Origin: Hyphomonas neptunium ATCC 15444 | GTDB taxonomy: Bacteria; Pseudomonadota; Alphaproteobacteria; Caulobacterales; Hyphomonadaceae | Length of the DNA stretch: 64,000 nt | Reading direction: 5' to 3' | Assembly: GCF_000013025.1 (NCBI RefSeq) | Contig: NC_008358.1 | Span: 1,178,001-1,242,000 of the forward strand | Part shown: positions 9,390 through 32,145 of the stretch, in pieces | Layout of the letters: each line of letters opens with the position of its first letter | Position numbering within the stretch: the stretch's first letter is position 1 | Notes under the pieces: model-generated | The model's database searches: none | Seen by the model: the letters and a program-made list of their open reading frames with translations, nothing else | What the model was told of the DNA's origin: nothing | Made by a program: the position numbers and the translations under genes

Positions 9390-10742
9390 GTGGGATTCAA
9401 AACCGGGTATCTGGCAGCCGCGCTGGCGTGCGCTTTTAGCGCGCTGTTCCTGAGCGCGGGGCCTGCGGCAGCAGAGATGACGGACGAAGCGGCCAGGGCG
9501 GCAATCGAGGCGGGGCAGTCGGCGATGCAGCGCCAGGATTGGACCAGCGCGTTTGGCCAGTTCGAGCGTGCATCCGCCAATGAGGACCTCGCGCCGGTCG
9601 CGCGCTTCTATACAGGTCTCACCCGGGAACAGATGGGAGATCAGGCTGCGGCCGTCGAGGATTACAAAGCCGTGCTGGAGATGAACAGTTACGCGCTGGG
9701 CGACCTGCGCAGCGTCACCTATGACCGGCTGACCGAAATCGGCCTGGACCAGCTGGAGAAGTCCGACCCCGTGGCGGCAATCGTCGCGCTTGAGGCCGCC
9801 GCCATCTCGGGAAGTTTTGATACGCTCTATTATTGGGGGGCGGCGGCTGTCCGCGTGCAGGATTGGACATCCCTTCAGCGCGCGGGTGAGCGCCTGCTCC
9901 AGCTTCAGCGGCATAGTGGCGAAGGCTGGCAGTTCACGTTGCACGCGCTGGAACAAATGGCCAGGGCCGGGGGCGCGGATGCATCGGATCTCCAGGACCG
10001 GATTTTGCGGACCCGCGATCAGATAATGGCCCAGCCCATTCTGCTGAACGAGTTGTCAGTGGGTGAGGAAGACGGCGCCCACGTCGTGACAGCGACGATG
10101 GTGGGCAATGCGGCGCCCGCTGGGAGCTGGTGCATCATAGATTTCTCTCTCAACATGGCGCAACGCAACTGGCGCGCGGGCGTCATGGTTACGGCGCCCG
10201 CGTCCGGACAGGCCGTGCAAATCAAAGCCCGGCCCGCGACCAATGACAACTCCAGCGCGCCGCCGCCGGTGTCGGAGCGTATCTACAATGTGAGGTACAA
10301 GGAGGTTTACTGCGAGTTGCCAGACGCGGCGGCCGCAACGCCGCCGGAGGCAAAGAAGGTAAAGCTGGACGGTTGCCCTGACACTGAACGAGAGGCGCGC
10401 CAACTGCTTGCCAATCGCCCGGAAATAGGCCGGCTCAGCGACGGCAGAGACGCAGAATACGCTTATCCGGCAGGCGGCCTCACCCTGTTCGGTTCGCCGG
10501 TAAGCCGTCTTACCGTCAAAGACGACCTTTACCGGTTTGGCCTGAGCGGCGCCTTTGCCGGTCACGAGAAAAAATTTGCGCAGCGCTATCGTACAGATTG
10601 CGCCGAAGACGGGATCAGCGACTATTGCCAGAAATCCCATGAGCGCAAGAATGGCTACATATCGTTTGCGACCCTGGCAGATTCCGATTGGCCAGAGGGC
10701 ATGCGCCCGCGGCAGACCTATCTGAGCTGTCTCTACAAATGA
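9390..10742 (+). CDS. Secreted TPR-like protein of unknown function
   Basis: A 450-residue protein. It opens with a signal peptide (GFKTGYLAAALACAFSALFL, cleavage near AAAEM). The next 200 residues look like tetratricopeptide helices, for example AIEAGQSAMQRQDWTSAFGQFERA and ARFYTGLTREQMGDQAAAVEDY. The C-terminal half is unrelated and contains six or more Cys residues, suggesting disulfides in the periplasm. GTG 9390 is chosen because GGAGGG lies 9 bases upstream; the upstream in-frame ATG at 9273 would hide the signal peptide. I do not recognise a named family. Confidence 0.7.
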   Translation: MGFKTGYLAAALACAFSALFLSAGPAAAEMTDEAARAAIEAGQSAMQRQDWTSAFGQFERASANEDLAPVARFYTGLTREQMGDQAAAVEDYKAVLEMNSYALGDLRSVTYDRLTEIGLDQLEKSDPVAAIVALEAAAISGSFDTLYYWGAAAVRVQDWTSLQRAGERLLQLQRHSGEGWQFTLHALEQMARAGGADASDLQDRILRTRDQIMAQPILLNELSVGEEDGAHVVTATMVGNAAPAGSWCIIDFSLNMAQRNWRAGVMVTAPASGQAVQIKARPATNDNSSAPPPVSERIYNVRYKEVYCELPDAAAATPPEAKKVKLDGCPDTEREARQLLANRPEIGRLSDGRDAEYAYPAGGLTLFGSPVSRLTVKDDLYRFGLSGAFAGHEKKFAQRYRTDCAEDGISDYCQKSHERKNGYISFATLADSDWPEGMRPRQTYLSCLYK

Positions 10743-16741: not shown

Positions 16742-18262
16742 TCAGCGGGCGAATTTCTGCTTCACCTTTTGCGCCACATTGATCACCGACTGTTCGACGC
16801 CTTCGGGCCGGCCGTGAATGCTCCACAGCAGGGCATGGCTCACCGCGTAGACCAGCGCGCCGGTGCCCGACAGCAGCGCGACCGTAAGGACGTTGCCGAC
16901 GGCGGTGTCAGGAAGGGGGAAGGTGTCGCGGACAGCCAGAACGACCCCGATCATGATGGCCGCCGACAGCAGGGACCGGCCAAAATTCTTGATCTGATCG
17001 ACGACGCTGATCTGAAGCAGGCTTTTCAGGAAGAACAGGTTGATGATCGTGGCGAGAACCGTGGAGACCACATAGCCGGCGAGGAAGCCGGTGAACCCGT
17101 AGAGCCAGATGCCGACCAGGAGGCAGGTGACCTGGACCACCAGGGCGATGACATCGCGGCGCAGCATCAGGCTGGTGCGGCTGAGGGACATGGCGACCGA
17201 CCGGATGGGGCCTGTGGCCAGCAGAAGGCCGGTGCACGGGGCATAGAACTGGACGATCAGCACGGCCTCTTCCCAGCCCGGCCCGAGGAGGAAGGGGATC
17301 AGCGGATCTGCGACCAGCGCGAGGCCGAAACCGACCGGCATGGCGAGCGCGACCGTGGCCGACTGGGCTTTGAGGTAAGCCGCGCGGAAGCGGTTGATGT
17401 CTTCAGCGAGGCGGCTGAAGGCGGAGAACAGCGACCGCATGATCGGGACGAGGAAAAGATAGGATATTTCCGAAGAGAGTTTGTTGCCGATGTGCAGCTG
17501 GCCCAGCGTGTCCTGGCCAAAGCGGCGGCCGGCGATGAGGTTTACGCTTTCGGTGGTGAGGCGGCTGACGATCATGCTGAGGCCGAGCCAGATGGAATAG
17601 TCCAGCAGCCGGCGCGGTGAGCGCAGCGACAGGGCGGGCAGTTTGCGGGCGGCAAAATAGGTGATGATCATGCTGGCGAAGGTGCCTGCGACCATGCCGA
17701 TGACGAAGGCCCAGTAGGACTGCCAGATCAGCGCGATGGCGATGCTGACGGCGACCTGGACGATCTTGGAGGTGATCTCGGCAAAGACATCCCAGGTGAA
17801 ATTGAGCGACCGGGCGAAGTTTTCAAAATAAGGGTTTCTCAGCCCAAAGATGATCATCTGGAGCGCGAGAACCATGATGACAGGCGCGACTTCCGGCATG
17901 CTGAACAGCTGGCCCATGGGGTAGGCAATGACCAGAAGCACCACCGAAACCAGAAGCGAGCGGATGATCGAGATGGTCCAGGCGGTGTTGAACTCGTCAT
18001 CGGTCGGGGACGGCAGCGCGATCAGGGCTGTGGTGACCGGGATGTCCAGAAGGGCTGCCATGATGCCCATGATGGCCATGGACAGGGCGATTACGCCGAA
18101 ATCGGCGGGCACCAGGATGCGCGCCAGGGCAATTGTGCCGCCAAAAGCGAGGGCATAGCTGGCCAGCTTCGCGAACGCCAACCAGGCCGCCGCGCGAACA
18201 ACCTGCCGGGAAGAAACATCTTCGCCTGGCACCTGCGCCGTCAGATTCTGGTCGTGTGTCAT
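16742..18262 (-). CDS. Wzx-type polysaccharide flippase
   Basis: A 506-residue inner-membrane protein with about 12-14 hydrophobic helices and the layout of the MATE/Wzx oligosaccharide flippase group. The first helices (AWLAFAKLASYALAFGGTIALARIL, then DFGVIALSMAIMGI) are typical of O-antigen/teichoic-acid exporters. It would move undecaprenyl-linked repeat units to the periplasmic face. It is transcribed away from the NRPS gene, but the polysaccharide locus at 32-42.8 kb has no flippase of its own, so this is the likely partner. Confidence 0.88.
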   Translation of the reverse strand: MTHDQNLTAQVPGEDVSSRQVVRAAAWLAFAKLASYALAFGGTIALARILVPADFGVIALSMAIMGIMAALLDIPVTTALIALPSPTDDEFNTAWTISIIRSLLVSVVLLVIAYPMGQLFSMPEVAPVIMVLALQMIIFGLRNPYFENFARSLNFTWDVFAEITSKIVQVAVSIAIALIWQSYWAFVIGMVAGTFASMIITYFAARKLPALSLRSPRRLLDYSIWLGLSMIVSRLTTESVNLIAGRRFGQDTLGQLHIGNKLSSEISYLFLVPIMRSLFSAFSRLAEDINRFRAAYLKAQSATVALAMPVGFGLALVADPLIPFLLGPGWEEAVLIVQFYAPCTGLLLATGPIRSVAMSLSRTSLMLRRDVIALVVQVTCLLVGIWLYGFTGFLAGYVVSTVLATIINLFFLKSLLQISVVDQIKNFGRSLLSAAIMIGVVLAVRDTFPLPDTAVGNVLTVALLSGTGALVYAVSHALLWSIHGRPEGVEQSVINVAQKVKQKFAR

Positions 18263-18828
18263 GTACGCTTCTTTTTTTGTGTGTCACTTCGAGACGGAAT
18301 CCGGAAGGCGGTCTTGCTATGAGATTCCCGTGCCATGACACATTCCTGTGGCACGGCGCAGCCAGTAGAGGCCAGCCAAGTATTTCGGAATTCTGAAGAT
18401 TTCCGGCCCCCGCCTTCCGCGGGGCAAAGGGGCCGGGATGGTGGCCGTGATTTGGTTTAATTCCTGCATGGATGTAAGTTGCCGACTGGGGAGTGAGGCA
18501 AGCGTGACATATTATAATACGACGCAGGAATCCCGATTAAGCGATGCAGAGTGCTTCGGCCGTGTGACCCGTCATGGAACACCGGTGGCAGAGGCGCGCC
18601 TGAACCCCGGTGCCATTCTGGTGGGCCGGGCGTGGCGGCGGCGATGCGCGTTGAAACGGGCTGGCAGGCGAATTCCACGGGGTTCGTGTGAGTTTCAACT
18701 TATAATTTTTACAAAACGTGACCGAAACTCGCCTAAGCACCAGAGTGGCTGGCTTGATCGCGCATTGGCGCCGAGTTAGCTTGGGGTGGGGACATGTATT
18801 CAGTAAATAAACGTATAGTGGGTGGCTC
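18263..18828. promoter_or_regulatory. 566-base divergent control region of flippase and NRPS
   Basis: This gap separates the minus-strand flippase from the plus-strand NRPS and is more AT-rich than its surroundings. Two perfect TATAAT hexamers lie at 18513-18518 and 18701-18706, but neither has a recognisable -35 box at 16-18 bases. No coding frame in it looks real. The length and AT content suggest complex regulation of the NRPS-PKS genes. Confidence 0.45.
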
Positions 18829-21800
18829 GTGAACAATATTACTGCGCTTATCGTCGGCGATGGACCGCTGCTGTTGCAATGCCTTGAGGCATATATGGCA
18901 TCGGGCGGGCAGGTTACTGCTGTCGTTACTCAGGACAGCGCGATTGCCAGCCATGGTGACGCCATCGGCGTGCGTGTGCTGAACAAAAGCTCGGTCGTCT
19001 CGGGCGAGCTTGAGGCGCTTGAGTTCGACTATCTGCTGAGCATTGCCAACCTCGACATGCTTCCGGAGTCGCTGCTGAAGCGCGCCCGCAAGATGGCGAT
19101 CAACTTTCACGATGGCCCCCTGCCACGTTATGCGGGCCTCAACGCGACGTCCTGGGCCATCCTTCAGGGCGAGACCGCGCATGGTGTCACCTGGCATGAG
19201 ATGACCGGCAAAGCCGACATGGGCGGTATTGTCGAAGCCGCACCATTGACGATTGACCCGAATGATACGGCCTTCAGCCTTAACGCCAAATGTTTCGAGG
19301 CGGGGCTGGCATCCTTCAAGGCGATGATCCCGTCGCTGCTTGCCGGCAATGTCACGGTCCGGCCGCAGGACGGCGCGCGGACCTATTTCGGCCGGTACAA
19401 ACGGCCGGACGCCGCGGCGACGCTGCGGTTTGATGTTTCTGCAGACGACACGCTGGCGCTTTCGCGGGCGATGACGTTCGGGCCTTACACCAATACACTG
19501 TCTTTCCTGAAAGTGTGGACCGGGCAGCGCGTGCTGCTGGTGAGCGATGTCGAGGCGGCGACGGGTGCGGCGTCTCTGGCGGCACATGGCACGGTGATCG
19601 CGCACGACGCGGATGGCGTTGTTGTGGCAGCGCAGGGCGGCCAGTTGCTGCGCCTGAGCGGGCTGACGGACAGTTCGGGCGCGGCGGTCGATCCGGCGCA
19701 GTCGGGCGATCTCGCACTTGGCGCGCGCCTGCCGGATCTGGCCGCCAGCGATGTGGCTGAGCTGGACCGTCACACGGTTGCGGCGGCAAAGGCGGAAAGC
19801 TTCTGGATGGCGCATAGCGCGCGGGCGGTCGCCAGCGAAGCGGCGCCGTATCCCCGCGCGCTGAAGCCGGCGGCGGGCGTGCATACATTCCCGCTGGATG
19901 CCGGCGCGGAGCTGTCGCTTGGCTTGGCGGCGGTTGCGGTTTGGTCTGCACATGTGGGCGGGGCGTCTTCAGCAGCGATTGCCTTTCATGACGGCGCGCA
20001 ATGGACCGGGCTTGGCAAATATGCGGCGTGGTTTGCGCCCTGGCGCCCGCTGGCGCTGGATGTGGCCGGTGACGCGCAACGCGGAGAGCTGGTTGCGCAC
20101 GCGCGCGCCCTGGTGGACGCGGCGCGGGATAAAGGTCCCCTGGCCTGCGACGCTTATATGCGCCGGCCACGCGCCGAGCGCATGCAGGGGCGGGCGGATG
20201 ATTTCTCGCTGGCTGTCGCCATCGGGGGAGACGCTCCAAAACATCCGAATGCGGATATTATTCTGCGCGCAGGCGAAGCCGGGCTGACGCTGGAGATTTC
20301 TGCAGGCGCTTACGACGCAGATGTGGCGGGCGTGATCGCCGGACATATCGCGTCAGCGCTCGCCGGCCTTCGGGATGCGCCGCAAGAGGCTGTATCCGGG
20401 CTTGACGTTCGCCCGGCAGCTGAGCGTGGCGCACTGGCCGCGTTTGAAGCAGGCACAGCCACCCGCGTTCCCTTTGTGTCGATGCATCAGGGCGTGACCG
20501 ATCAGACCGCCCGCTCGCCCGACCGGTTGGCACTGCGCACGCGTGACGGCGCGATGACCTATGCCGAGCTGGACGCCGCGTCGAGCCAGGTCGCCGAGCA
20601 GCTCATGGCGCGCGGCGTTCGCGCCGGCGAGACGGTTGGCGTCTGCATGAACCGGTCGATGGACCTGGTGGTGGCGTTGCTGGCCGTGCTGAAGACCGGC
20701 TGTGCCTATGTGCCGCTTGACCCGGCCTATCCGGCCGACCGGCTTGATTTCATGCTGGAAGACAGCCAGTCGCATTTTGTCATCACGGATGCGCCCGGCG
20801 CGCAGGAGGGTGTGCGGGCCCAGCGGCTGGCATTTGGCGAGCTGCGCGGCGGCTCTGCGGGCGGATGGCGCGCGCCGGAGGTTGGCCCGCAGGATCTGGC
20901 CTATCTGATTTACACTTCGGGATCGACGGGCCGCCCCAAGGGCGTGAAGGTTCAGCATGGCGCGCTGGCAAACTTCTTTGCGGCGATGGATGTTCGCCTT
21001 CCGTATAAAGAGGGTGATACCTGGCTGGCGGTGACCAGCCCCAACTTTGACATCTCCGTCCTTGAGCTGTTCTGGACGCTGTCGCGCGGCCTGACTGTGG
21101 CGCTGCATGGCGCGGAAACGCAGAAAACCAAGCCGTTCAGCCTGTTCTATTTTGCGGCGTCCTCTGCCGCGAATGCCGATCAGTACAAGTTGTTGTTTGC
21201 GGGCGCGCGCTTTGCCGATGAAAACGGGTTTGAGGCGATCTGGACACCGGAACGCCACTTCCATGATTTCGGCGGTTCCTATCCTAACCCGGCCGTGACG
21301 AGCGCTGCGCTGGCGGCGATCACGAAGAATGTGCATATCCGTGCGGGCAGCTGCGTGCTGCCGCTGCATCACCCCATCCGGGTGGCGGAAGACTGGTCGG
21401 TGATCGACAATGTGTCCCGCGGCCGGGTCGGTCTTGCCATTGCGACGGGCTGGCAACCAAATGACTTTGTTCTGGCGCCGGACAATTTTGCGACGCGCCG
21501 TGATACGCTCAGCGAGCGGATCGACACGCTGAAGCGCCTGTGGCGCGGCGAGGCCGTGCCGTTTGTGAACCCGAACGGCGTTGAGGTGCCAACGCGTATT
21601 CATCCCCGCCCGATCCAGAAGGAACTGCCGATCTGGCTGACGATTGCCAAGGCGGCCGAAGCATTCGAGAGCGCAGGGCGGCAGGGCTTTAATGTGCTGA
21701 CCCACCTGCTGGGCATGTCGGTAGCTGAGCTTGGCGGCAACATCGCCAGGTATCGTGAGGCCTGGCGGAAAGCCGGGCATCCGGGCGAAGGACGTGTGAC

Positions 21801-23379
21801 GTTGATGTTGCACTCGTTTGCCGGCGAGACCGATGACGATGTTTGCGAGACCGTCCGTGAGCCAATGAAAGCGTATCTGCGCACCTCGGTTGATCTTGTG
21901 CGCGATGCGGCCTGGACTTTCCCGACGCTGGTTCAGAAGGGCGAAAAGACAGGCCGCACGGCGCAAGAGGTGATGGACGCCGAGCCGCTGACGGACGAAG
22001 AGATGGACGCGCTGCTTGACCATGCGTTCGAGCGCTATTTCCAGACGAGTGGTCTTTTCGGATCGGTTGAGACCTGCGCCGAGATGGCGCGCCGGGTGCA
22101 TGGTATTGGCGTGGACGAGATCGGCTGTCTGGTCGATTTCGGGGTGGATCAGGACCTGGCGATTGAGCATCTGCCCTATCTGAAACGCGTGATGGACCGT
22201 GCCGGAGCTTCGCCGTCGCATGAAGGGCGGCACACGGTTGCCGAGGATGTCGAATTTTTTGGTGCCTCACATCTGCAATGCACACCGTCCATGGCGATGA
22301 TGCTGGGCGGCGAAACCGAGAAGCTGGCCGGGCTGCAGGTGCTCTGCGTGGGCGGGGAAGCGCTGCCGATGGAGCTGGCCCGGTCGCTGCGCACGGCGGC
22401 GCCGCAGGCAAAACTGTTCAACATGTATGGGCCGACCGAGACGACGATCTGGTCGACCATGTGTCATATCGATGAAGTGGGAAATTTCATTCCGCTGGGC
22501 GAAGCCCTGCTCAACACAACGCTGCGCATCGATTCGCCTTCGGGCCGGCCCCAGCCGGCGCTGGCTGCCGGAGAGCTGCTGATCGGCGGCGACGGCGTGA
22601 CGCTGGGATACTGGAACCGGGAAGATCTGACGGCAGAGCGTTTTGTGACGCTGCCGGACAGGCCGGGTGAGGTGATGTATCGGACTGGTGACCTTGTGCG
22701 CCGTCATTCCGATGGGAAACTGGAATTCCTGGGGCGGATCGATCATCAGGTGAAGCTGCGCGGGCACCGGATCGAGCTTGGCGAGATCGAGGCGGCGCTG
22801 ATTGCCGAAGCGGCGATCGCGCAGGCGGTGGTTGTTGCGCTTGGCGACAGCAATGAAAATAAGCGGCTTGTTGCCTATTGCGTTGTCAAACCGGGCGCCG
22901 AGCTTGATACCAAAGCGCTGAGATCGCAGCTGTTGCAAAGCCTGCCGGAAATCATGGTGCCGGCGCACATTGTTGTGCTGCCGAGTTTGCCGCTGACGCC
23001 GAATGGCAAGATTGACCGCAAGGCATTGCCTGCGCCGGAAGCGGCGGTTCAGGGCGCGGTTGAGACGCCCAGCGATGAAGTGGAGCAGAAGCTTGCCTCC
23101 ACATGGAGCGATCTGCTTGGGCTTCCAGCGGTGGATGTGAACGCCAATTTCTTTGACCTTGGCGGGCACTCCCTGCTGGCATTCCAGATGCTGCGGCGCG
23201 TGCAGAGCGACTTCTCGCGGGATGTAACCATTACGGATGTCTTCCGTTTTCCGACCGTCCGTACACTGGCTGAGCGTATCCGCAAGGGTGGCAGTGATGA
23301 CAAGGACAAGCCGAATGCGGGGCTCGGCCGGGCGCAGGCGCGCCTGGCTGCGCGCCGCCGTGATTCTGCAGGGGCCTGA
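18829..23379 (+). CDS. NRPS: formyltransferase, adenylation split by luciferase-like monooxygenase, carrier
   Basis: A 1516-residue NRPS starting at GTG 18829. Residues 1-310 form a methionyl-tRNA-formyltransferase-like domain with the catalytic Asn92, His94 and Asp130. Residues about 320-545 resemble a decayed condensation domain without HHxxxDG. The adenylation domain starts near 552 (A3 TSGSTGRPKG at 697-706; Asp741 in FDISVLE). It is interrupted between motifs A4 and A5 by a luciferase-like flavin monooxygenase (about 768-1125) and resumes near 1130 (NMYGPTE at 1198, Lys1394 in NGKIDRK). A carrier domain ends it (Ser1448 in LGGHSLL). The insertion is of the MupA/Atu3671 kind. By eye the binding-pocket code is close to that for glycine. 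The PKS follows 5 bases downstream. Confidence 0.93.
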   Translation: MNNITALIVGDGPLLLQCLEAYMASGGQVTAVVTQDSAIASHGDAIGVRVLNKSSVVSGELEALEFDYLLSIANLDMLPESLLKRARKMAINFHDGPLPRYAGLNATSWAILQGETAHGVTWHEMTGKADMGGIVEAAPLTIDPNDTAFSLNAKCFEAGLASFKAMIPSLLAGNVTVRPQDGARTYFGRYKRPDAAATLRFDVSADDTLALSRAMTFGPYTNTLSFLKVWTGQRVLLVSDVEAATGAASLAAHGTVIAHDADGVVVAAQGGQLLRLSGLTDSSGAAVDPAQSGDLALGARLPDLAASDVAELDRHTVAAAKAESFWMAHSARAVASEAAPYPRALKPAAGVHTFPLDAGAELSLGLAAVAVWSAHVGGASSAAIAFHDGAQWTGLGKYAAWFAPWRPLALDVAGDAQRGELVAHARALVDAARDKGPLACDAYMRRPRAERMQGRADDFSLAVAIGGDAPKHPNADIILRAGEAGLTLEISAGAYDADVAGVIAGHIASALAGLRDAPQEAVSGLDVRPAAERGALAAFEAGTATRVPFVSMHQGVTDQTARSPDRLALRTRDGAMTYAELDAASSQVAEQLMARGVRAGETVGVCMNRSMDLVVALLAVLKTGCAYVPLDPAYPADRLDFMLEDSQSHFVITDAPGAQEGVRAQRLAFGELRGGSAGGWRAPEVGPQDLAYLIYTSGSTGRPKGVKVQHGALANFFAAMDVRLPYKEGDTWLAVTSPNFDISVLELFWTLSRGLTVALHGAETQKTKPFSLFYFAASSAANADQYKLLFAGARFADENGFEAIWTPERHFHDFGGSYPNPAVTSAALAAITKNVHIRAGSCVLPLHHPIRVAEDWSVIDNVSRGRVGLAIATGWQPNDFVLAPDNFATRRDTLSERIDTLKRLWRGEAVPFVNPNGVEVPTRIHPRPIQKELPIWLTIAKAAEAFESAGRQGFNVLTHLLGMSVAELGGNIARYREAWRKAGHPGEGRVTLMLHSFAGETDDDVCETVREPMKAYLRTSVDLVRDAAWTFPTLVQKGEKTGRTAQEVMDAEPLTDEEMDALLDHAFERYFQTSGLFGSVETCAEMARRVHGIGVDEIGCLVDFGVDQDLAIEHLPYLKRVMDRAGASPSHEGRHTVAEDVEFFGASHLQCTPSMAMMLGGETEKLAGLQVLCVGGEALPMELARSLRTAAPQAKLFNMYGPTETTIWSTMCHIDEVGNFIPLGEALLNTTLRIDSPSGRPQPALAAGELLIGGDGVTLGYWNREDLTAERFVTLPDRPGEVMYRTGDLVRRHSDGKLEFLGRIDHQVKLRGHRIELGEIEAALIAEAAIAQAVVVALGDSNENKRLVAYCVVKPGAELDTKALRSQLLQSLPEIMVPAHIVVLPSLPLTPNGKIDRKALPAPEAAVQGAVETPSDEVEQKLASTWSDLLGLPAVDVNANFFDLGGHSLLAFQMLRRVQSDFSRDVTITDVFRFPTVRTLAERIRKGGSDDKDKPNAGLGRAQARLAARRRDSAGA

Positions 23380-23384
23380 AACTT

Positions 23385-26300
23385 ATGGCCGATGAGAACA
23401 GCATCGCCATCGTTGGCATGGCTGGGCATTTTCCCGGCGCACGGTCGGTTCGGGAATACTGGTCGATGCTTGAGGCTGGCCGGGACGCGACCCGCTGGCT
23501 GACACCTGAGGAACTCGTGGCGGCCGGGGAGTCGTTCGCGGCGATTCAGGACCCCCGCTATATCCGGGCAACCATGGCGCTGCCGGACATGGAAATGTTC
23601 GATGCCGGATTTTTTGGATTCAGCCCACGCGAGGCGGCAATCCTTGATCCTCAGCATCGCCACTTTCTGGAATGCTGTTGGGAAGCGCTGGAAGATGCCG
23701 GTCATATGCCGGCGGATGAATTTGACGGCGCTGTCGGGGTATTCGGCGGCTGCGGGATGCAGGCCTATCTGGCGTTCAACCTGCTGAGCAATCCGGAGCT
23801 GGTTGAGAGTGAGGGCATGTTCCTCCTGCGCCACACGGGCAATGACAAAGACTTTCTCACGACGCGGGTGTCTTATCTGCTGAACCTTCACGGGCCGAGC
23901 ATTGGCGTGCAGACCGCGTGCTCGACCTCACTGGTTGCCATTCACATGGCGTGTCAGAGCCTGCTTGCGCGCGAATGCGATATGGCGCTGGCGGGCGGCT
24001 CCAGCATCGATCTGCCTCATGGCAGGGGTTATCGGTATGCGGAGGGTGAAATCCTCTCATCGACCGGGCGCTGCCGCGCCTTTGATGACGAGGCGGACGG
24101 CACCCTGTTTGGCAGTGGTTCAGCTGTGGTTGCGCTGCGGCGGCTGGATGATGCCCTGCGGGACGGGGACAACATACATGCCGTGATCCTGGGGTCGGCC
24201 ATCAACAATGATGGCGCGCGCAAGGCCGGCTATCTGGCGCCCAGCATTGACGGGCAGGCGATGGCCGCTGCCGAAGCCCTGGCGATTGCCGGGGTGGAGC
24301 CCGGCAGCGTGGACTATATCGAGGCGCACGGCACCGGCACGCTGGTCGGTGATCCGATCGAGCTTTCGGCCCTGCAGCAGGTTTATGGAGACGCCCCGGC
24401 AGGATCAATCGGGATCGGCTCGGTGAAGACCAATATCGGTCACCTTGATACGGCAGCTGGCATTGCCTCGCTGATCAAGGTGGTGCTGGCGATGCGCGGA
24501 GAAAAGCTGCCCGCAACGCTCAACTTCTCAAAGCCCAACAGCCGTTTTGATTTTGCGCGCAGCCCTTTCAAGGTTGTCGGTGAACAAAAGGATTGGCAGC
24601 GGGGCACCAAGCCCCGCCGGGCGAGCGTCAATTCGCTGGGCGTGGGCGGAACCAACGCGCATGTCGTGCTGGAGGAGGCCCCCATACTTCCGCCGGCGTT
24701 GGCATCCGGCCCGCAGGTGATCACGCTTTCGGCAAAGACGAAGGACTCGCTTGAGGGACTCGTGGCCAAGTGGCGGGGTTTTGCGGCGGCGCCGGACGCA
24801 GGGTTCTGTATCGCAAACGCTGCCTTTACGGCGCAGACCGGCCGCAAGATCTTTGCGCATCGGGCAACGGTGGTGGCTTCCAACGCTCAGGAACTGGCGG
24901 AGAGGCTGACGCCCAATGGCGCCTGGCGGCGCACGTCAGCGACGGCGAAGGACACCAAGCCACGCATCGTGTTCATGTTTCCCGGCGGCGGCGCGCAATA
25001 TCCCAATGCTGCCCGTTCGCTGTATGAGAACAATACGGAGTTCCGCGCGGCGGTAGAAGCGTGTTTTGCCGTCCTTGAGCCGGGACTGGCAAGGGATCTC
25101 CGCGCACTGATGTTTGAGGCGGTCGATTTCAAGGCCGGTTCGGCGGCGCTGGAGCGGCCGACTTATTCGCTGCTTTCCGTGTTCATCGTCGAGTATGCGC
25201 TGTCGAAGCTGTGGGAAAGCTGGGGTGTTACGCCCGATGCCGTGATCGGCCACAGCGCAGGCGAGTATGCGGCAGCTGTGCTGGCCGGCATCATGTCGCT
25301 TGAGGACGCGATTGGCGTTGTGCTTGAGCGCGGCGAGATATTCGAAACGGCGCCTGCGGGCGGCATGATCAGCGTTCAGGACGATGAGGCGCGCGTGCGT
25401 GCGCTGGTTGGGGATGATCTCGATATTGCGGTTCTCAATTCTCCGCAGGTGACAGTGGTATCCGGCGCGGATGAGCCGCTCGCGGCGTTTTCCAAACGTC
25501 TGGAGGCGGAGGGTATCAAACATGCTCCGGTGCGTATCAAGGTGGCGGCACATTCGCGCATGCTGGACGGCGGGTTGGCCCGCTTCCGTGCGCGGCTCGA
25601 CCGGGTGAAACTTTCGCCGCCGAAAATGGAATTCATCAACAATCTTGTTGGCGCGCCGGCCAAGCCGCAGGAACTGGCGACATCCGATTACTGGGTGAAC
25701 CATCTGCGCGGCGCGGTGCGATTTGCGGACGGACTTTCAGCGGCGTTGTCGACACCTGACACGGTGCTTGTTGAGGTCGGACCGGGGCAGGCGCTGTGCG
25801 CGCTGGCGGGGCTGGCGCAGGGCGCGCATGCCCTTCGCGGTGTCGTGGCGAGCCTGCCGACAGCTGTGGAAGATCATGACGCGGAAGCTTATGCGCTGTC
25901 CGCGTTTGGCCATCTCTGGGCGCTTGGCGCATCCGTTGATTTTGCCCGTGTACGGAAGGGTGAAGGCCAGCGCAGGGTGTCGGTGCCGACCTATGCGTTT
26001 GAGCGCCAGCGCCACTGGATCGAGCCCGGCAAAGGCAAAGCGGCGGCAGATACCGATACGCTTCAGATTTTCCGCAGCGCGGACGTCAAGGACTGGTTCG
26101 AAACGCGCGTGTATGAACCGGCTCCATTGGAGCAAGAGACACACAGCGCGCGCACGCATGTCATATTCAGCGATGGCAGCGACTTAGCCGCCGAGACGAT
26201 CAAGCGTCTCCGCGCGCGAGGGGATGCATGTGTCGTGGTGAGCCACGATCCGGCAGCGGGCGAATTGCAGACTGCGGATGGCGCCTTCAGCTTCGACGCC

Positions 26301-29300
26301 AGCGCGCAGGATTATGCGCCCCTCATTGATGCGGTATCTCAAGAATGTGCAGAGCCCGATACGCTGGTTTTCCTTTGGCCGCTTCTTTATGCGTCTGCGG
26401 ACGAAGCATTCCAGGCGTTTGATGCCGCTTTCAAGCTCGGCAAGGCGTTGCAGCTTTCCGGCTGGGCTGAGCGGACCCTGCTGGTTGCGGCCACGCAAAA
26501 TGCCCTCGCAGTTGAGGCAAGCGAAGCGAGCGACGCCATGCAGGCGGGTGTGTTCGGCCCCTGGCAGATGCTGAGCGCAGAACAGCCCGGCGTGCGGGCA
26601 AGAGTTGTGGATTTCGGCGCTGCGGATGACATCAGTATGCGTGCCGGCGAGATCATCAGCGAATTGGATGCCGCAGGCGATGCGCCGGTTGCCGCCTGGC
26701 GGGATGGGCAGCGGTTTGTACCGGGGCTCAAGCGAGGCGTAACGCCGCCGGCGAACCAAACGTTGCGGGAAAAGGGCGTATATCTCATCACCGGCGGCCT
26801 GGGCGGTATCGGGCTTGAGCTGGCGCGATACCTGGCCGGCGCGGTCAAGGCGCGGCTGGTTCTGACAGGACGCACCCCGGCGCCGCCGCGCGAAAGCTGG
26901 GACCGGCTTGCTGCCGGTTGGGGCGCGCCGGACGATGTTGTGCGGGCACGGGAACTTATCGCGCTCGAATCGCTGGGCGCCGAAGTGCTCGTTATGGCCG
27001 CGGATGTTGCAGACACTGCGGAGATGCAGGCTGTCGTGGACCAGGCGCGCGCACGCTTTGGCGCCGTGAACGGAATATTCCACGCTGCGGGCGCGATTGA
27101 CGATACGCCTATGGCGATGAAAACCTTGGAGGAAGCCCACAGGGTGCTTTCCGCCAAAGCCCAGGGTGCACGCGTGCTTGATCGCCTGGCGCCGGATGGC
27201 ACGCTGGATATGTTCGCGGTCTTCTCATCGACCAGTGTTCTCATCACGCCGCCGGGACAATCCGATTATGTGGCGGGCAATGCGATTGCCGAGACGGTGG
27301 CTGCTTCCCGGAGCGATGGGCGCGTCATTACCTGGGGTATCTGGGCCGACATCGGCATGGCCAAGCGGGCGGCGGACGCGGGCGCGGTTGGAAATGCGGG
27401 CGCGATGCATCCTCTGCTGGGTGTGCGGCAGGAAACCCGAGACGGCACCGTGCAGTTTGCCGAAACCTATTCCGAAGCAACCCTCTGGACACTGAGCGAA
27501 CACCGGATTGGCGATATTACTGTTCTTCCCGGCGCCGCCTATGTGGAAATTTCCAGCGCGGCTGCGCTGAGTGTAGGTCTGGGGGACCAGGTGGACATCA
27601 GCCAGCTGAGCTATGTCGCGCCGCTTGCCATCCGGCCGCGCCAATCGCGCCAGGTGCGCACCACATTGACGCCGCTGGAAGGCGATGGTTTCCGGATTGA
27701 AGTGGAAAGCCGCGCGCATGCGGGCGAAGGCTGGCTGCTGCATTTTGATGCGCAGCTCTCCAAGAGAACATCGGCGCCAGACCCCGTTTCCGCAGTGGCG
27801 TGCGAGACGGAGATTGATGCAGAACGTCTGACTTTGACAGAGCGCGGGGTTGGATTTGGCCCACGCTGGAGCAACGTTTCGCGGGCAAGGGTTGGAGACG
27901 GCGCTGTCAGCGCAGACTTTGTTTTGCCCAGGGATTTTGTGGACGATCTCGAAACCTACCGCATTCATCCGGCCTTGTTTGACACCAGCTTTGCTGCGGG
28001 GCTGTTCCTGCTGGAGAATGATGCAGAGCGCGGCGTGTTTGCGCCCGTATCGATCGGGTCCGTGCGGGTGTATCGTACACTGACGGAACGGTTTTCAGCC
28101 GAGGGCCGGCTGACAGCTGAAGGGGACGACACCGCCACATTCGATGTCGATATAAAAGACGCCTCTGGCACGCTGTTGCTTGAGGTTCGCGGGGCTTGCT
28201 TCCGCCGGGTTGAGTTTGGCGGAGACATCCCCGCAATTCCCGAACCTTCCGCCAGCGCCAGGGACCGGTTGCTTGCCGAGGGTATCCGTGCGGCAGAGGC
28301 GCACGCTATGTTTGAGCAGCTGTTCACGCAAGGCGCTCGGTCCTTTGTCGTATCGCCCGTATCGGTCGCGCAGGCAAAGCTGGTCATCCGGGGGCCGGCC
28401 GCCGCAGCATCCAGCGCCTCATCGGATCGCAAGGCGGTGACAGGTGGTGATCCGGTCGAGCAACGGCTTGCGGAGATGTGCGCGGAGATACTGGGCGTTG
28501 ATACGCTGGGGCTCGACGAGGAGTTCCTGTCCTATGGGGGTGGCTCTCTGACGGGCGTTCGTCTGTTTGCGCGTATCCGGCGGGATATGGGTGTGGAACT
28601 GGCGCTGAGCGCGCTGCTGCAAGCGCCCACGATCCGGCTGCTTGCCGTTCTGGTGCGAGAGAAGTTGCCCGAGCCATTGGAGGGCGCGCCGGCGGCTGAA
28701 GATGTTCCGGTAACGGAAAAAGAGACGGCAGCGCCCGACGCGGCTCCCAAAGCAGCCGTGGCAGCCGCCCCTCCCGCCAAACCAGCCGCAGCAAAAGCGC
28801 GTTGGTCGCCGCTTGTGCGCATGGCGCCGGGCGCGTCAGGCGGCAAGCCGGTTTTCCTGATCCATGGCGCGGGTGGAACCGTTCTGGTGTTCAAGCCACT
28901 GGCCGATCGCCTGCGCAGCGAAGCACCGGTTTACGGGATTGAGGCGCAGGGCATCGACGGGACACAGCCCGTATTGGAAACCATCGAGGAAATGGCCGAT
29001 CTCTACGTCCGCCATATTCTCACGCTCGATCCGAAGGGGCCTTACCGTCTGGTCGGATATTCCGGGGGCGGAGTAATCGCCGTGGAGATGGCACACCAGC
29101 TGCGCCGGAGTGGACGCGAGGTGGAGTTCCTCTGTCTGCTGGACACCCTGGCGCCGCAGGAGGCAGAGCGGCCGGTACGTTTCGACAAGGAAGTGGCCCG
29201 CTTTGGCCAGAAGCTGCAGGAGTGGGTGCAGCTGGGGCCAGCGGAAATCGGCGCTCGTATCCGCAAACGCGCAAATTCCGTGAAAGACGCCCTTCGCGCC

Positions 29301-29642
29301 CGTGTGGAGCCAAAGCCTGAGGTGGCGCCCAAATCGCATATCGAGATCCTCTCTGATCTGGTCGAAGAGGGGTACATGAAGGCGCAGCGGAATTATCATC
29401 CGCCCCAGTATGATGGCGACGTGCTGTTGTTCCGGGCGGAGCACGCCTTGCTGCCATTCTTGCGGGCTGGCGAGAAGCTGGGCTGGGATGACATCCTCAT
29501 CGGCAAGATGGACATCATATTCCTGGACGCCGATCATTTCAGCCTGATCAGAACACCAACGACCGAGAAGATTGCGGACGAAATACTTTCAAGGCTGAAT
29601 GCATTGAAGGCGAAGGCGGAAAGCAGGCTGGAAACCGTATGA
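23385..29642 (+). CDS. Type I PKS: KS-AT-KR-DH-ACP-TE
   Basis: A 2085-residue single-module polyketide synthase. The ketosynthase spans about 1-430 (Cys179 in TACSTSL, His315 in EAHGTGT, His353 in NIGHLD). The acyltransferase is about 520-830 (Ser624 in GHSAGEY, His723). A linker leads to a ketoreductase (NADPH loop TGGLGGIG from 1136, active Tyr in QSDYVAGN). A dehydratase comes after it (His1373 in EHRIGDITVLPG, Asp1533 in HPALFDTSF). The carrier has Ser1721 in a GGGSL context, and a Pro/Ala-rich linker precedes a thioesterase (Ser1893 in GYSGGG, His2051). It would extend the NRPS-bound aminoacyl unit by one ketide, reduce and dehydrate it, and release it. No enoylreductase is seen. Confidence 0.95.
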   Translation: MADENSIAIVGMAGHFPGARSVREYWSMLEAGRDATRWLTPEELVAAGESFAAIQDPRYIRATMALPDMEMFDAGFFGFSPREAAILDPQHRHFLECCWEALEDAGHMPADEFDGAVGVFGGCGMQAYLAFNLLSNPELVESEGMFLLRHTGNDKDFLTTRVSYLLNLHGPSIGVQTACSTSLVAIHMACQSLLARECDMALAGGSSIDLPHGRGYRYAEGEILSSTGRCRAFDDEADGTLFGSGSAVVALRRLDDALRDGDNIHAVILGSAINNDGARKAGYLAPSIDGQAMAAAEALAIAGVEPGSVDYIEAHGTGTLVGDPIELSALQQVYGDAPAGSIGIGSVKTNIGHLDTAAGIASLIKVVLAMRGEKLPATLNFSKPNSRFDFARSPFKVVGEQKDWQRGTKPRRASVNSLGVGGTNAHVVLEEAPILPPALASGPQVITLSAKTKDSLEGLVAKWRGFAAAPDAGFCIANAAFTAQTGRKIFAHRATVVASNAQELAERLTPNGAWRRTSATAKDTKPRIVFMFPGGGAQYPNAARSLYENNTEFRAAVEACFAVLEPGLARDLRALMFEAVDFKAGSAALERPTYSLLSVFIVEYALSKLWESWGVTPDAVIGHSAGEYAAAVLAGIMSLEDAIGVVLERGEIFETAPAGGMISVQDDEARVRALVGDDLDIAVLNSPQVTVVSGADEPLAAFSKRLEAEGIKHAPVRIKVAAHSRMLDGGLARFRARLDRVKLSPPKMEFINNLVGAPAKPQELATSDYWVNHLRGAVRFADGLSAALSTPDTVLVEVGPGQALCALAGLAQGAHALRGVVASLPTAVEDHDAEAYALSAFGHLWALGASVDFARVRKGEGQRRVSVPTYAFERQRHWIEPGKGKAAADTDTLQIFRSADVKDWFETRVYEPAPLEQETHSARTHVIFSDGSDLAAETIKRLRARGDACVVVSHDPAAGELQTADGAFSFDASAQDYAPLIDAVSQECAEPDTLVFLWPLLYASADEAFQAFDAAFKLGKALQLSGWAERTLLVAATQNALAVEASEASDAMQAGVFGPWQMLSAEQPGVRARVVDFGAADDISMRAGEIISELDAAGDAPVAAWRDGQRFVPGLKRGVTPPANQTLREKGVYLITGGLGGIGLELARYLAGAVKARLVLTGRTPAPPRESWDRLAAGWGAPDDVVRARELIALESLGAEVLVMAADVADTAEMQAVVDQARARFGAVNGIFHAAGAIDDTPMAMKTLEEAHRVLSAKAQGARVLDRLAPDGTLDMFAVFSSTSVLITPPGQSDYVAGNAIAETVAASRSDGRVITWGIWADIGMAKRAADAGAVGNAGAMHPLLGVRQETRDGTVQFAETYSEATLWTLSEHRIGDITVLPGAAYVEISSAAALSVGLGDQVDISQLSYVAPLAIRPRQSRQVRTTLTPLEGDGFRIEVESRAHAGEGWLLHFDAQLSKRTSAPDPVSAVACETEIDAERLTLTERGVGFGPRWSNVSRARVGDGAVSADFVLPRDFVDDLETYRIHPALFDTSFAAGLFLLENDAERGVFAPVSIGSVRVYRTLTERFSAEGRLTAEGDDTATFDVDIKDASGTLLLEVRGACFRRVEFGGDIPAIPEPSASARDRLLAEGIRAAEAHAMFEQLFTQGARSFVVSPVSVAQAKLVIRGPAAAASSASSDRKAVTGGDPVEQRLAEMCAEILGVDTLGLDEEFLSYGGGSLTGVRLFARIRRDMGVELALSALLQAPTIRLLAVLVREKLPEPLEGAPAAEDVPVTEKETAAPDAAPKAAVAAAPPAKPAAAKARWSPLVRMAPGASGGKPVFLIHGAGGTVLVFKPLADRLRSEAPVYGIEAQGIDGTQPVLETIEEMADLYVRHILTLDPKGPYRLVGYSGGGVIAVEMAHQLRRSGREVEFLCLLDTLAPQEAERPVRFDKEVARFGQKLQEWVQLGPAEIGARIRKRANSVKDALRARVEPKPEVAPKSHIEILSDLVEEGYMKAQRNYHPPQYDGDVLLFRAEHALLPFLRAGEKLGWDDILIGKMDIIFLDADHFSLIRTPTTEKIADEILSRLNALKAKAESRLETV

Positions 29643-30583
29643 GTGTACGGATGATCTTTCTGACGGGCGGCGCCTTGCTTGCGGCGGGCGCGGTGTTGAT
29701 TGTTCTGATCGTGGCCTGGCTTCAGTCAAAAGCCCTCACCAGCCCGCCGGGATACGCCCAGCCAGATCCCGAGACGTTTACATTCGCCGAAACACCGCAG
29801 TCTGCTGCCGGGCTGGATTATGAGGATGTGAGCTTCTCCGTGCCCACGGGCGAGACGCTGCGGGGATGGCTGGTGCCGGCGGCGGAGCCGTCGGATATTG
29901 CCATAGTCACGCTGCATGGCCGCGGGAACGACCGCCGGGCCTTTCTGAGACATCTTGGAATGTTTCATCAGCTGGGCGCCAGCGTTCTGATGTTTGATCT
30001 GCGGGAGAATGGCCTCAGCGACGGCGCCGGCCGGGGCACGGGTCTGTCAGTGCGGGAAGCAGAAGACGGCGTTGCGGCGGCGGCGGAGATGCGCCGGATG
30101 GGGTATCAGAGAATAGTCGTGTACGGTTGTTCACTGGGCGGATCGGCAGCCATCATTGCCGCCGCGAAAGACCCGTCGATTGATGGCGTTGTCGCGGAAT
30201 CGTCGATTGCCAGCTTCGAGGCCTTTGTGGCCGACGGAATAGATCAGCGTCTCAAAGGGCGGGGCGTGAATGCCTCCTGGGTGGCGGCGCTTTGGGGCGA
30301 GACTGTTGTTGGCCTCACGCGGTGGCGGATAGGGCTGAAGTCCTATGTCAGCGCCGAAGATGCCATGCCGCAGATTGCGCCGCGCCCGGTTCTCATCCTT
30401 CACGGGACGGACGACTATGTGGTGCTTGAACAGCACGCCCGGTCTCTGGTGGAGCGGGGCGATGCGCATGTCAGCTATTGGCCGATCGAGGGGGCCGGTC
30501 ATTGCGACGGGTATGAGGTTGCCGGGGACGCGTATCGTGCCCGCTTGGCAGAGTTCCTTGCCACTCTACCCCCGGCCAAGTGA
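29639..30583 (+). CDS. Membrane-anchored alpha/beta hydrolase
   Basis: A 314-residue hydrolase. The first 25 residues form one membrane anchor (IFLTGGALLAAGAVLIVLIV). Then comes the alpha/beta core, with oxyanion segment VTLHGRGNDRR, nucleophile Ser in YGCSLGGSAA, Asp in LHGTDDYVVLE and His in GAGHCDGYE. ATG 29639 overlaps the PKS stop (ATGA), so it is made with the assembly line. It may hydrolyse, acylate or cyclise the product at the membrane, or serve as an editing esterase. The role is inferred only from context. Confidence 0.85.
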   Translation: MSVRMIFLTGGALLAAGAVLIVLIVAWLQSKALTSPPGYAQPDPETFTFAETPQSAAGLDYEDVSFSVPTGETLRGWLVPAAEPSDIAIVTLHGRGNDRRAFLRHLGMFHQLGASVLMFDLRENGLSDGAGRGTGLSVREAEDGVAAAAEMRRMGYQRIVVYGCSLGGSAAIIAAAKDPSIDGVVAESSIASFEAFVADGIDQRLKGRGVNASWVAALWGETVVGLTRWRIGLKSYVSAEDAMPQIAPRPVLILHGTDDYVVLEQHARSLVERGDAHVSYWPIEGAGHCDGYEVAGDAYRARLAEFLATLPPAK

Positions 30584-30621: not shown

Positions 30622-31788
30622 TCAATCCGTGGGCGATAGCAGACCGGGCGCCGCTTCCGTCACTTGGGTGATTCCGGTCAACGCCATGGAAACGGTCAAC
30701 TCGCCTTTCATGGCCGCCAGAAGGTGGGCGAGGCCTTTTTCGCCGCCGCCTGCGAGCGCGTAAACCCATGGGCGGCCCATCATGGCAAGGTCGGCGCCGC
30801 TGGAAAGCGCCTTGAGGATGTCCTGCCCGGAACGAATGCCGCCATCCATGAGGATCAGGGTTTTCCCGGAAACAGCCTCGGCAATCGGGGGCAGCGCCCG
30901 GATGGACGAAGCAACGCCGTCAAGCTGGCGGCCACCATGGTTGGACACCACGATGCCATCAGCGCCGCAGTTGACCGCTTCAAGCGCGTCCTCGCGGTCC
31001 AGAATTCCCTTGATGATGAGCGGCCCGCCCCATTGGGCCTTGATCCATTCAATATCTTTCCAGCTGACGGAGGGGTCGAGCGAGGCATTGGCCCATGCGG
31101 AGAAATCTGCCGGGGTGGCAGCATCTGGCACATAAGGCGCGACATTGGCGAGAATATGCGGCCCGCCACGCAGGCCGACATCCATACTCCATCCGGGATG
31201 CATCATGTAGGAGAGAAGGCCGCGGCGCAGCCTGGCCCAGGCGCCGCCGCCGCCGCTCATGGTATTGCGCACATCCCTGTACCGGGTGCCGACCACCGGG
31301 AGGTCAACGGTCAGAACCAGCGCCGAGGCGCCAGCGGCCTTCGCGCGCGCGATCAGATCGGCCACCGAACCGCGATCCCGGATCATGTAGAGCTGAAACC
31401 AGAGCGGCCCCTGGGTTGCGGCAGCAACCTCCTCGACCGAGCAGATCGACAGCGTGGAAAGACAATAAGGAATGCCGAACTCGCCCGCCACCTTTGCGGC
31501 ACTCGCCTCGCCGCGGCGTGCCATCATTCCGGACAGACCGACGGGTGACAGGGCCAGCGGCATGGTCAACGTGTTGCCAAGAAAGGATTTTTCGGTGGTC
31601 AGCGCCGAAACATCGCGCAGAATGCGTTGGCGAAGTTCAATCGCTTCAAGGTCCGCCACATTCCGTCTGAGCGTCAGTTCGGCGTAAGCGCCGCCGTCCA
31701 GATAGTCGAAGAGGAAGCGCGGGAGGCGCTTCTCGGCCCTCAGGCGGTAGTCAGAGGCGCAGGCGGGAGCAAGGGTCAGGGTTGGCAT
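30622..31788 (-). CDS. FMN-dependent alpha-hydroxy acid dehydrogenase (LldD-like)
   Basis: A 388-residue (S)-2-hydroxy-acid oxidase/dehydrogenase fold. Typical landmarks are FLFDYLDGGAYAELTLRRN, the FMN/substrate segments LALSPVGLSGMMARRGE and LWFQLYMIRDRG, and the active-site His/Arg of VSNHGGRQLDG. It oxidises lactate, mandelate or another 2-hydroxyacid to the 2-oxoacid. It is convergent with the hydrolase gene and divergent from the polysaccharide locus. It could serve the assembly line, for instance on a hydroxylated unit, or be plain lactate metabolism. Confidence 0.9.
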   Translation of the reverse strand: MPTLTLAPACASDYRLRAEKRLPRFLFDYLDGGAYAELTLRRNVADLEAIELRQRILRDVSALTTEKSFLGNTLTMPLALSPVGLSGMMARRGEASAAKVAGEFGIPYCLSTLSICSVEEVAAATQGPLWFQLYMIRDRGSVADLIARAKAAGASALVLTVDLPVVGTRYRDVRNTMSGGGGAWARLRRGLLSYMMHPGWSMDVGLRGGPHILANVAPYVPDAATPADFSAWANASLDPSVSWKDIEWIKAQWGGPLIIKGILDREDALEAVNCGADGIVVSNHGGRQLDGVASSIRALPPIAEAVSGKTLILMDGGIRSGQDILKALSSGADLAMMGRPWVYALAGGGEKGLAHLLAAMKGELTVSMALTGITQVTEAAPGLLSPTD

Positions 31789-32145
31789 GCGCGCCGTTGT
31801 AAGGGAGCAGGGCAGGGCTTGGCAAAGCTATTCTGAATCAAAATTGCTCGCATTTTCTGAGCGTTCTGACTCATATTTCTAAAATTACATGAAATTGCAA
31901 AGCAGTCGTTTAGACCTTGTTAAGATTAACGGCGCGCGCCATTAGGGCGAGGTGCGCGGACGAAAGACCTCCCGACAGGAGAAATCTACGGGATCGTGAT
32001 ATTCATTTGTAATCCATTTCCGCGTAAACAACCGTCAGCAAATCCGTTGACGTAAATCTGTTCAAAGTCCGCCTGGCGGGGTGGCGCTGAACTTGCAGGG
32101 AACCGCCAAAGACCGGGCCTAACCGGCCTCGCAATCAAAGTGAGA
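31789..32145. promoter_or_regulatory. Divergent leader of the exopolysaccharide locus
   Basis: About 357 bases between the hydroxyacid dehydrogenase and the beta-barrel gene, AT-rich at 31835-31930. A weak promoter candidate is TTGCAA at 31895 with TGTTAA 17 bases later at 31918. The latter overlaps TTAAGATTAA. No gene is seen here. Confidence 0.35.

Follow-up and report, generated by a model that had tools for sequence, protein, structure and literature searches.

A 64,000-nucleotide stretch of the Hyphomonas neptunium ATCC 15444 genome (GCF_000013025.1, NC_008358.1, positions 1,178,001 to 1,242,000; hereafter the window) carries a nonribosomal peptide synthetase (NRPS) gene, a single open frame of 1516 amino acids with a GTG start (18829-23379, plus strand; positions are those of the window). 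By Pfam and NCBIfam models and, for the second part, a sequence profile, its product consists of a formyltransferase, the C-terminal half of a condensation domain, an adenylation domain split by a flavin monooxygenase and a carrier protein, and the gene is followed by that of a one-module polyketide synthase (PKS). Every one of these domain types was already known. What is new is this order joined to one PKS module, its conservation across many genera and its frequent location in exopolysaccharide (EPS) loci; among the open-licence literature matches listed, we found neither a characterised cluster of the same domain order nor a paper on such an NRPS-PKS pair in EPS loci. The initial annotation of this stretch had treated the architecture as a stand-alone oddity, a view that no longer holds, as conserved copies of the module occur in many genera, a good number of which have it among polysaccharide genes. 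We tentatively propose that the NRPS-PKS pair builds a glycine-derived, oxidised acyl unit that decorates an exopolysaccharide, a chain of events that we consider plausible but short of probable; the biochemistry of the assembly line is predicted from sequence and the attachment to polysaccharide is suggested by gene context.

The formyltransferase domain (18829-19728, plus strand; residues 1-300; Pfam Formyl_trans_N at 57-158, 8.7e-15) carries the triad Asn92/His94/Asp130, which is kept in 84 of 85 NRPS sequences. These 85 come from 76 of the 80 loci that make up our sample of named-genome relatives (the best 80 of 567 confirmed matches), from the window and from eight plasmid loci; the motif counts omit four loci (L068, L072, L088 and L090), whose four NRPS domains do not all lie in one frame. 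The only formyltransferase of the 85 with a replaced catalytic His is that of Sneathiella (L030/L083), which has F for H (NFFDGPL) in a frame that is open. An AlphaFold model of residues 1-550 has a mean predicted local distance difference test score (pLDDT) of 94.8, and its best 50 Foldseek matches are all formyltransferases or 10-formyltetrahydrofolate hydrolase domains. Among solved sequences, the nearest are ArnA (E 3e-16) and sugar N-formyltransferases, LgrA being a weaker match (E 1e-3).

The segment that follows (19756-20463, plus strand; residues ~310-545) is a condensation-domain remnant that retains only the C-terminal lobe. A profile of residues 301-550, built from 42 sequences, matches solved condensation domains only in their second half (~197-479), among them Txo2 (2.8e-25, 197-473), McyB (8.5e-22) and EntF (3.5e-15), and the half that would hold HHxxxDG is therefore missing. 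Nor does this motif occur within the initial 700 residues of any of the 85 frames; three HHxxxD strings were found there, none followed by G, of which two lie just upstream of the formyltransferase domain and the third reads HHTIAD. Pfam Condensation does not match the window protein and matches five of the 42 profile members, and a purpose-built model placed the half domain between the formyltransferase and the adenylation domain in all 84 loci listed. The assignment of the lobe comes from the sequence profile, because the 50 Foldseek rows were filled by the formyltransferase part. The half domain may serve as a spacer between its two neighbors.

The adenylation domain is found by Pfam AMP-binding as two stretches (5.2e-72), with AMP-binding_C at residues 1319-1394. 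Its first part (20500-21123, plus strand; residues 558-765) extends to just past motif A4 (FDIS, 740-743), and its second part (22261-23028, plus strand), where TIGR01733 resumes at residue 1145, covers A5 to A10. Between A4 and A5 (1198-1204) sits a luciferase-like flavin monooxygenase (21136-22191, plus strand; residues 770-1121) that matches TIGR04020 with an E-value of 4e-153 and Pfam Bac_luciferase at residues 781-1097 (3.3e-45). Its closest solved relative is the OX domain of PuwE (6ket; E 5e-101, 44% identical), which Foldseek aligns with a template modelling (TM) score of 0.90 by target length. A structure model of the split domain with its insert has a pLDDT of 86.5 and a predicted TM score of 0.60, so the relative placement of the adenylation and monooxygenase parts in it is unreliable. 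The module ends in a peptidyl carrier domain (23086-23280, plus strand; Pfam PP-binding at 1420-1484) with Ser1448, and this Ser is present in all 83 sequences of the set that can be read at this position. Much of this had been seen by the initial annotation, namely the formyltransferase triad, the condensation-like segment without HHxxxDG and an insert of about 350 residues that breaks the domain after A4 (Asp741) and lets it resume before A5 (Asn1198). Both positions are right, the three models that it had named (Formyl_trans_N, Bac_luciferase and TIGR04020) all matched, and the insertion is indeed of the MupA/Atu3671 type, with 509.4 bits against a curated TIGR04020 cut-off of 244.45.

The specificity code of the adenylation domain, read on alignments with positions mapped through PheA numbering and to be taken as a prediction only, is DILQCGMIWK. 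DILQ and the following G (position 301) are invariant in the 85 sequences; at position 299, 50 of them have M, 15 L, 10 F, five C, three Y and two H, and two sequences end before the last code positions. According to the accessible part of PMC12283262, four glycine domains with an inserted monooxygenase share DILQLGMIWK, which equals the Hyphomonas code at nine of ten positions and is read exactly in eight of the 85 sequences. The same text places all of its monooxygenase modules in glycine domains and such inserts between A8 and A9. PMC10204066 describes the myxothiazol/melithiazol monooxygenase as inserted, like that of the window, between a4 and a5 of a glycine domain and as hydroxylating the alpha carbon, with which PMC11342130 agrees; the carbinolamide then breaks and leaves a glyoxyl thioester, whereas solanimycin SolF, with an a8-a9 insert, retains hydroxyglycine. 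As the code matches those of published glycine modules with inserted monooxygenases, the substrate is very probably glycine, which sharpens the earlier reading of an amino-acid-derived starter.

The PKS gene (23385-29642, plus strand; 2085 amino acids) starts five bases after the NRPS gene and encodes one type I module, in which Pfam finds ketosynthase (KS, 23397-24527), acyltransferase (AT, 24969-25799), ketoreductase (KR, 26775-27350), dehydratase (DH, 27408-28214), acyl carrier protein (ACP, 28461-28646) and thioesterase (TE, 28848-29585) domains, all on the plus strand. The KR lies upstream of the DH; the common order in PKSs is DH before KR. In the window protein, every catalytic position counted has the expected residue, and these positions are well kept among 75 long PKSs including it: the KS C in 73 and its two H in 74 and 75, the AT S and H in 75, the KR Y and N in 75, the DH H, P and D in 75, 72 and 74, the ACP S in 74, and the TE S, H and D in 72, 67 and 73. 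The non-matches at the KS, DH Asp and ACP positions are gaps, the DH P is V or C in three sequences, the TE S is L or A in two and the TE H is E or D in two, the other TE non-matches being gaps; the position assigned to Ser in the KR holds S in 62 sequences and A in 13. In the window PKS, the DH has D at the G position of the usual HxxxGxxxxP motif and the AT motif reads AAH, which is neither of the two textbook motifs; because of these atypical motifs, DH activity and the use of malonyl-CoA are only likely. The NRPS and PKS distances agree closely (Mantel r of 0.962 for 75 pairs and 0.948 for a thinned set of 41, with none of 999 permutations reaching the observed value in either set), from which it follows that the two genes travel together and no more, and such a correlation is expected from common descent alone as well. 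An alpha/beta hydrolase gene (29639-30583, plus strand; Pfam Abhydrolase_1) comes next, its start overlapping the PKS stop (ATGA), and is 54-61% identical next to the PKS in other Hyphomonas carriers. We considered this hydrolase as a conserved third component and rejected the idea: pairwise comparison of the window copy with the hydrolases of Myxococcus (L079, E 0.21) and Comamonas (L101, E 0.15) shows no similarity, and we therefore claim no homology.

The formyltransferase, the first adenylation part and the monooxygenase lie in one frame in 78 of the 80 loci, and the second adenylation part as well in 76. A PKS match is present in 72 loci, and seven of the eight without one are loci under 19 kb. 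The sample is rich in Rhodobacterales and further includes Methylobacterium, Hyphomicrobium, other Hyphomicrobiales, Comamonadaceae and Myxococcus, together with metagenome-assembled genomes, whose names may be wrong, labelled Acidobacteria, Planctomycetes and Verrucomicrobia. Formyltransferases that the BLAST alignment had missed are carried by Shinella and Paracoccus (H12 and H16). Within Hyphomonas, seven of 42 genomes have the formyltransferase-bearing NRPS (five of 36 others, one of another five, and the window's own), as do six of 384 other genomes of the class. Two loci show side features: in a Terricaulis metagenome-assembled genome (L090, 10013-20771), the NRPS and PKS are scattered over several frames, which may reflect either sequencing error or decay, and in Hydrogenophaga pseudoflava (L125, 16600-20964), a further downstream NRPS frame has an adenylation domain with a glycine-like code, DILQ-GMVW.

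EPS genes surround many of these loci. We counted eight EPS gene classes in the 62 loci that span at least 19 kb and, as controls, in 40 stretches of 20 kb taken from five carrier genomes. At least one class was found in 44 of the 62 loci, at least two in 36, at least three in 32 and none in 18, against four, zero and zero of the 40 controls for the first three thresholds, with models seeded from frames of the window and of cassette-bearing plasmid loci, so that close relatives are favored in these counts. Two seeds proved unsuitable. Dropping the GT2 glycosyltransferase seed from the Aliiroseovarius locus L014, which was wrong (the frame is annotated as hypothetical), left the counts unchanged, and dropping in addition the doubtful Wzc seed from L016 (YhjQ/BcsQ) gave 44, 36 and 30 of 62 against three, zero and zero of 40. 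In a thinned set of 30 long loci, 21 had at least one class and 19 at least two. When lineages were assigned from record names, at least one class was present in 40 of 48 alphaproteobacterial, three of eight betaproteobacterial, none of three myxobacterial/delta and one of three other loci. In 34 of the 80 loci, the PKS and NRPS genes are separated by a GT2 gene on the same strand. Phosphopantetheinyl transferase (PPTase) genes were found in 32 of the 62 long loci against none of the 40 controls, and 34 of the 80 loci have one 3' of the NRPS on the same strand. In the window, general scans of the frames met no PPTase gene, and the genome has two PF01648 matches.

On a midpoint-rooted FastTree tree of the 85 sequences, EPS neighbors occur in both large clades and in several gene orders; the sole EPS class marked there for L014 is the wrong GT2 seed matching itself. 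Four arrangements stand out: flippase<NRPS>PKS in Hyphomonas; PKS>GT2>NRPS>PPTase, mostly in Rhodobacterales; PKS<NRPS>PPTase in Aminobacter, Shinella and Mesorhizobium; and NRPS>PKS, preceded by Wza/sugar transferase, in Caenimonas (L055) and Ramlibacter (L061). The Myxococcus/Comamonas group of the tree has no EPS neighbors.

The cassette of the window is flanked on one side by a Wzx-type (MOP) oligosaccharide flippase gene divergent from the NRPS gene (16742-18262, minus strand; Pfam Polysacc_synt_3, 1.7e-56) and on the other by a run of EPS genes, at whose border lies an FMN-dependent L-lactate dehydrogenase-like (LldD-like) gene (30622-31788, minus strand; NCBIfam PRK11197, Pfam FMN_dh) that we regard as context and not as part of the cassette. 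All on the plus strand, the run comprises a putative outer-membrane beta-barrel of the BBP2_2 family (32140-33444; Pfam, 1.1e-82), a Wzc-like chain-length determinant/tyrosine kinase (33506-35911; Pfam Wzz, GNVR and AAA_31), a GT4-like glycosyltransferase (35989-37134; Pfam Glyco_trans_4_4, 1.5e-4, at 22.6 bits under the cut-off of 29.7), a Wzy-type polymerase of the O-antigen ligase family (37204-38487; Pfam Wzy_C, 1.1e-11), a GDSL/SGNH hydrolase (longest frame 38259-39215; Pfam Lipase_GDSL_2, 9.7e-15), whose true start is probably later because this frame overlaps the Wzy gene, an acyltransferase-3 family protein (39239-40318; Pfam Acyl_transf_3, 3e-27), a GalE-like NAD-dependent sugar epimerase (40768-41775; Pfam Epimerase, 4.2e-56) and a GT2 glycosyltransferase (41817-42815; Pfam Glycos_transf_2, 2.9e-30). 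The window thus has the Wzx, Wzy, Wzc-type kinase and glycosyltransferases of a Wzx/Wzy-dependent EPS locus; neither an initiating sugar transferase nor a Wza export protein was found in it by our own models, and the BBP2 barrel is present.

Comparison within the genus indicates that the Hyphomonas cassette is a variable part of a near-universal EPS locus. Wzc is matched in 41 of the 42 Hyphomonas genomes, and six of the seven carriers have the cassette at the same locus as the window. The seventh (G014) has a divergent cassette (NRPS 41%, PKS 40% and hydrolase 54% identical), about 54 kb from its Wzc gene. Three cassette-free genomes that we examined retain the order LldD-BBP2-Wzc-GT4. Relatives of the flippase at 66-77% identity occur only in the other five genomes with a syntenic cassette (six of 42 with its own), the rest being at most 47% identical. 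Between GT4 and GalE, Wzy had no match in the three cassette-free genomes and is present in the carriers that have GalE, at 58-70% identity in the five other syntenic carriers. Wzc is 84-91% identical between syntenic carriers, and four of the five others have the GT2 gene at 73-85% identity, whereas it was not found in the stretch of the fifth (G030) that was examined. This co-variation of cassette, Wzx and Wzy is suggestive only. The LldD-like gene is matched in 20 of the 42 genomes at E 1e-100 and, in the genomes examined, adjoins BBP2/Wzc with or without the cassette. Elsewhere in the window, a scan of 18200-18900 for promoters and terminators found nothing, and a 489-amino-acid open frame (9273-10742, plus strand) has no Pfam match.

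These observations can be assembled into a pathway. The adenylation domain would load glycine onto the carrier, a step for which the code argues strongly; the formyltransferase, judging from its fold and triad, would N-formylate this glycine with 10-formyltetrahydrofolate; and the inserted monooxygenase, by analogy with precedents sharing its insertion site and code, would hydroxylate the alpha carbon, giving N-formyl-alpha-hydroxyglycyl-peptidyl carrier protein (PCP) or, if the carbinolamide collapses, glyoxylyl-PCP. We consider these three steps likely in their broad outline. The PKS would then add probably one extender unit, ketoreduce and dehydrate, leading to an unsaturated acyl chain of about C4 that the TE would release or transfer, and that this extension is single and non-iterative seems reasonably probable. 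In EPS-embedded lineages, including Hyphomonas, the unit could be joined to the EPS repeat either ahead of or in the course of its export through the cognate Wzx/Wzy system, a last step for which gene context leaves the balance about even. The initial annotation had suggested an N-formylated, oxidised starter: formylation, oxidation and a single PKS module are backed by the domains, and the formyl starter may not be passed on. That part is possibly only half right, because an A4/A5 insert of the same type leaves a glyoxyl thioester in myxothiazol/melithiazol (PMC10204066, as excerpted). In a variant that we think improbable, formylation would serve to make an N-acyl substrate for cleavage by an MtaG-type monooxygenase, formamide would leave, and glyoxylyl-PCP would be extended and then reduced and dehydrated to a 4-oxo-butenoyl unit, an electrophile carried by the EPS. 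If so, the cells would have an aldehyde-bearing coat able to cross-link or stick, and a dedicated assembly-line decoration of EPS would be spread over several phyla.

Several points weigh against this proposal. The 18 long loci without any EPS class by our models include three long Myxococcus/Pyxidicoccus loci, Comamonas, Rhizobium, Phenylobacterium, Sneathiella and two Hyphomicrobium loci, and five of the eight long betaproteobacterial loci have none; as some lineages (Myxococcus-type, betaproteobacterial) lack such neighbors, the EPS reading calls for caution. In 118 of 119 flanking frames of the EPS-free loci, no glycosyltransferase or flippase was among the 25 commonest of 173 Pfam families; ten frames of these loci scanned singly gave one glycosyltransferase (Aminobacter, L106) and one polysaccharide deacetylase. 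Within Hyphomonas, the co-variation with Wzx/Wzy in part reflects shared ancestry, because the syntenic carriers are close relatives, and the regions examined in the five other carriers hold no acyltransferase-3 or GDSL gene of similar identity to those of the window: GDSL has no match there and acyltransferase-3 only one of 24%, in G030. The final product also differs between lineages, as the partner PKS of the Aliiroseovarius sp. M344 plasmid (L014, 22495-31743) has an extra condensation-adenylation-carrier unit before the TE, with the code DTIWIGGVTK, and this lineage probably adds an amino acid after the polyketide step. The formyltransferase is closer in sequence to the sugar formyltransferase ArnA than to LgrA, and the transfer of the product to a sugar, with no gene assigned to it, is putative.

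It is possible, though doubtful, that what the two enzymes make is a free, diffusible compound, such as a signal, an antibiotic or a metallophore, which the TE would release and the MOP flippase would export, and that the closeness of their genes to EPS genes reflects shared regulation or island effects and no common product. This alternative stays in play, particularly for loci of the Myxococcus type. The 18 long loci lacking EPS classes speak for it; in Myxococcus (L079) and Comamonas (L101), genes for the PKS, an alpha/beta hydrolase and the NRPS follow one another and no EPS class is present. The window PKS ends in a TE with its Ser, His and Asp, and Streptomyces L052, counted as a luciferase-like monooxygenase (LLM) NRPS only, has annotated neighbors of amino-acid pathways and not of EPS. 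However, a free molecule does not readily account for the GT2 gene between PKS and NRPS in so many loci, for EPS classes being far commoner than in the control stretches, or for the position of the Hyphomonas cassette next to a near-universal EPS core. A siderophore in particular, suggested by analogy with Atu3671, was rejected, as no TonB receptor or iron-uptake gene was found in the window frames scanned or in the annotated formyltransferase-bearing loci examined.

For RkpA and WcbR of capsule clusters, a role in making a lipid-like carrier or anchor has reportedly been proposed. It is unlikely that the Hyphomonas PKS product is similarly a lipid-like carrier or anchor of the polysaccharide with the NRPS module providing a head group. 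The precedent would be wcbR/rkpA, a gene for a type I PKS found within clusters for capsular polysaccharide (PMC3908369); against it, the window PKS has no enoylreductase domain and the starter is an amino acid. The similarity to ArnA and other sugar N-formyltransferases could also mean that the formyltransferase modifies a polysaccharide component, a sugar nucleotide or amino sugar, in place of glycyl-PCP, with the NRPS half acting separately. This is very improbable, given the fusion to the adenylation domain and monooxygenase in nearly all of the 80 loci, also in lineages without EPS neighbors, and given LgrA, in which a fused formyltransferase is said to formylate a carrier-bound amino acid.

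If the decoration of exopolysaccharide by the NRPS-PKS pair is borne out, an assembly line would build a custom non-sugar part of a bacterial glycan; to our knowledge, the polysaccharide decorations known so far come mostly from simple acyl-, pyruvyl- or amino-acid transferases. Such a modification would matter for the way in which marine and plant-associated bacteria adhere and form biofilms. In this module, moreover, a glycine monooxygenase of a chain-cleaving type stands at the head of an assembly line, and the chemical question is then whether formyl-hydroxyglycine is retained or a glyoxylyl starter is made.

The module combines traits of several known systems. LgrA of linear gramicidin likewise has an N-terminal formyltransferase fused to adenylation and carrier domains, of the same fold class and with the N/H/D triad; its formyltransferase is said to run straight into the adenylation domain with no condensation-domain sequence, whereas the Hyphomonas NRPS has a half condensation domain between the two and a monooxygenase in the adenylation domain. 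Atu3671 gave its name to the LLM family of the Hyphomonas insert (TIGR04020) and differs in that it presumably belongs to the fabrubactin cluster, which is a siderophore cluster. Closer in chemistry are the terminal modules of myxothiazol and melithiazol, which we take to be MtaG and MelG. The available parts of PMC10204066, PMC12283262 and PMC11342130 give them the same insertion site, the same glycine code class and a monooxygenase expected to act on the glycine alpha carbon; likened here by description only, they differ in that they release the chain as an amide and are followed by a TE. In contrast, the Hyphomonas module is initiating, begins with a formyltransferase, has neither a full condensation domain nor a TE, and has a PKS gene next to it. 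RkpA and WcbR, likened by gene context only, also place a type I PKS gene among polysaccharide genes, and no NRPS partner is named for them in the accessible part of PMC3908369. Finally, among solved domains, the Hyphomonas monooxygenase is most closely related to the OX domain of PuwE, from the puwainaphycin pathway. That domain is flanked by a PKS module on one side and an NRPS module on the other and presumably contributes to forming a 3-amino-2-hydroxy acyl chain (PMC4219810); glycine is not its expected substrate.

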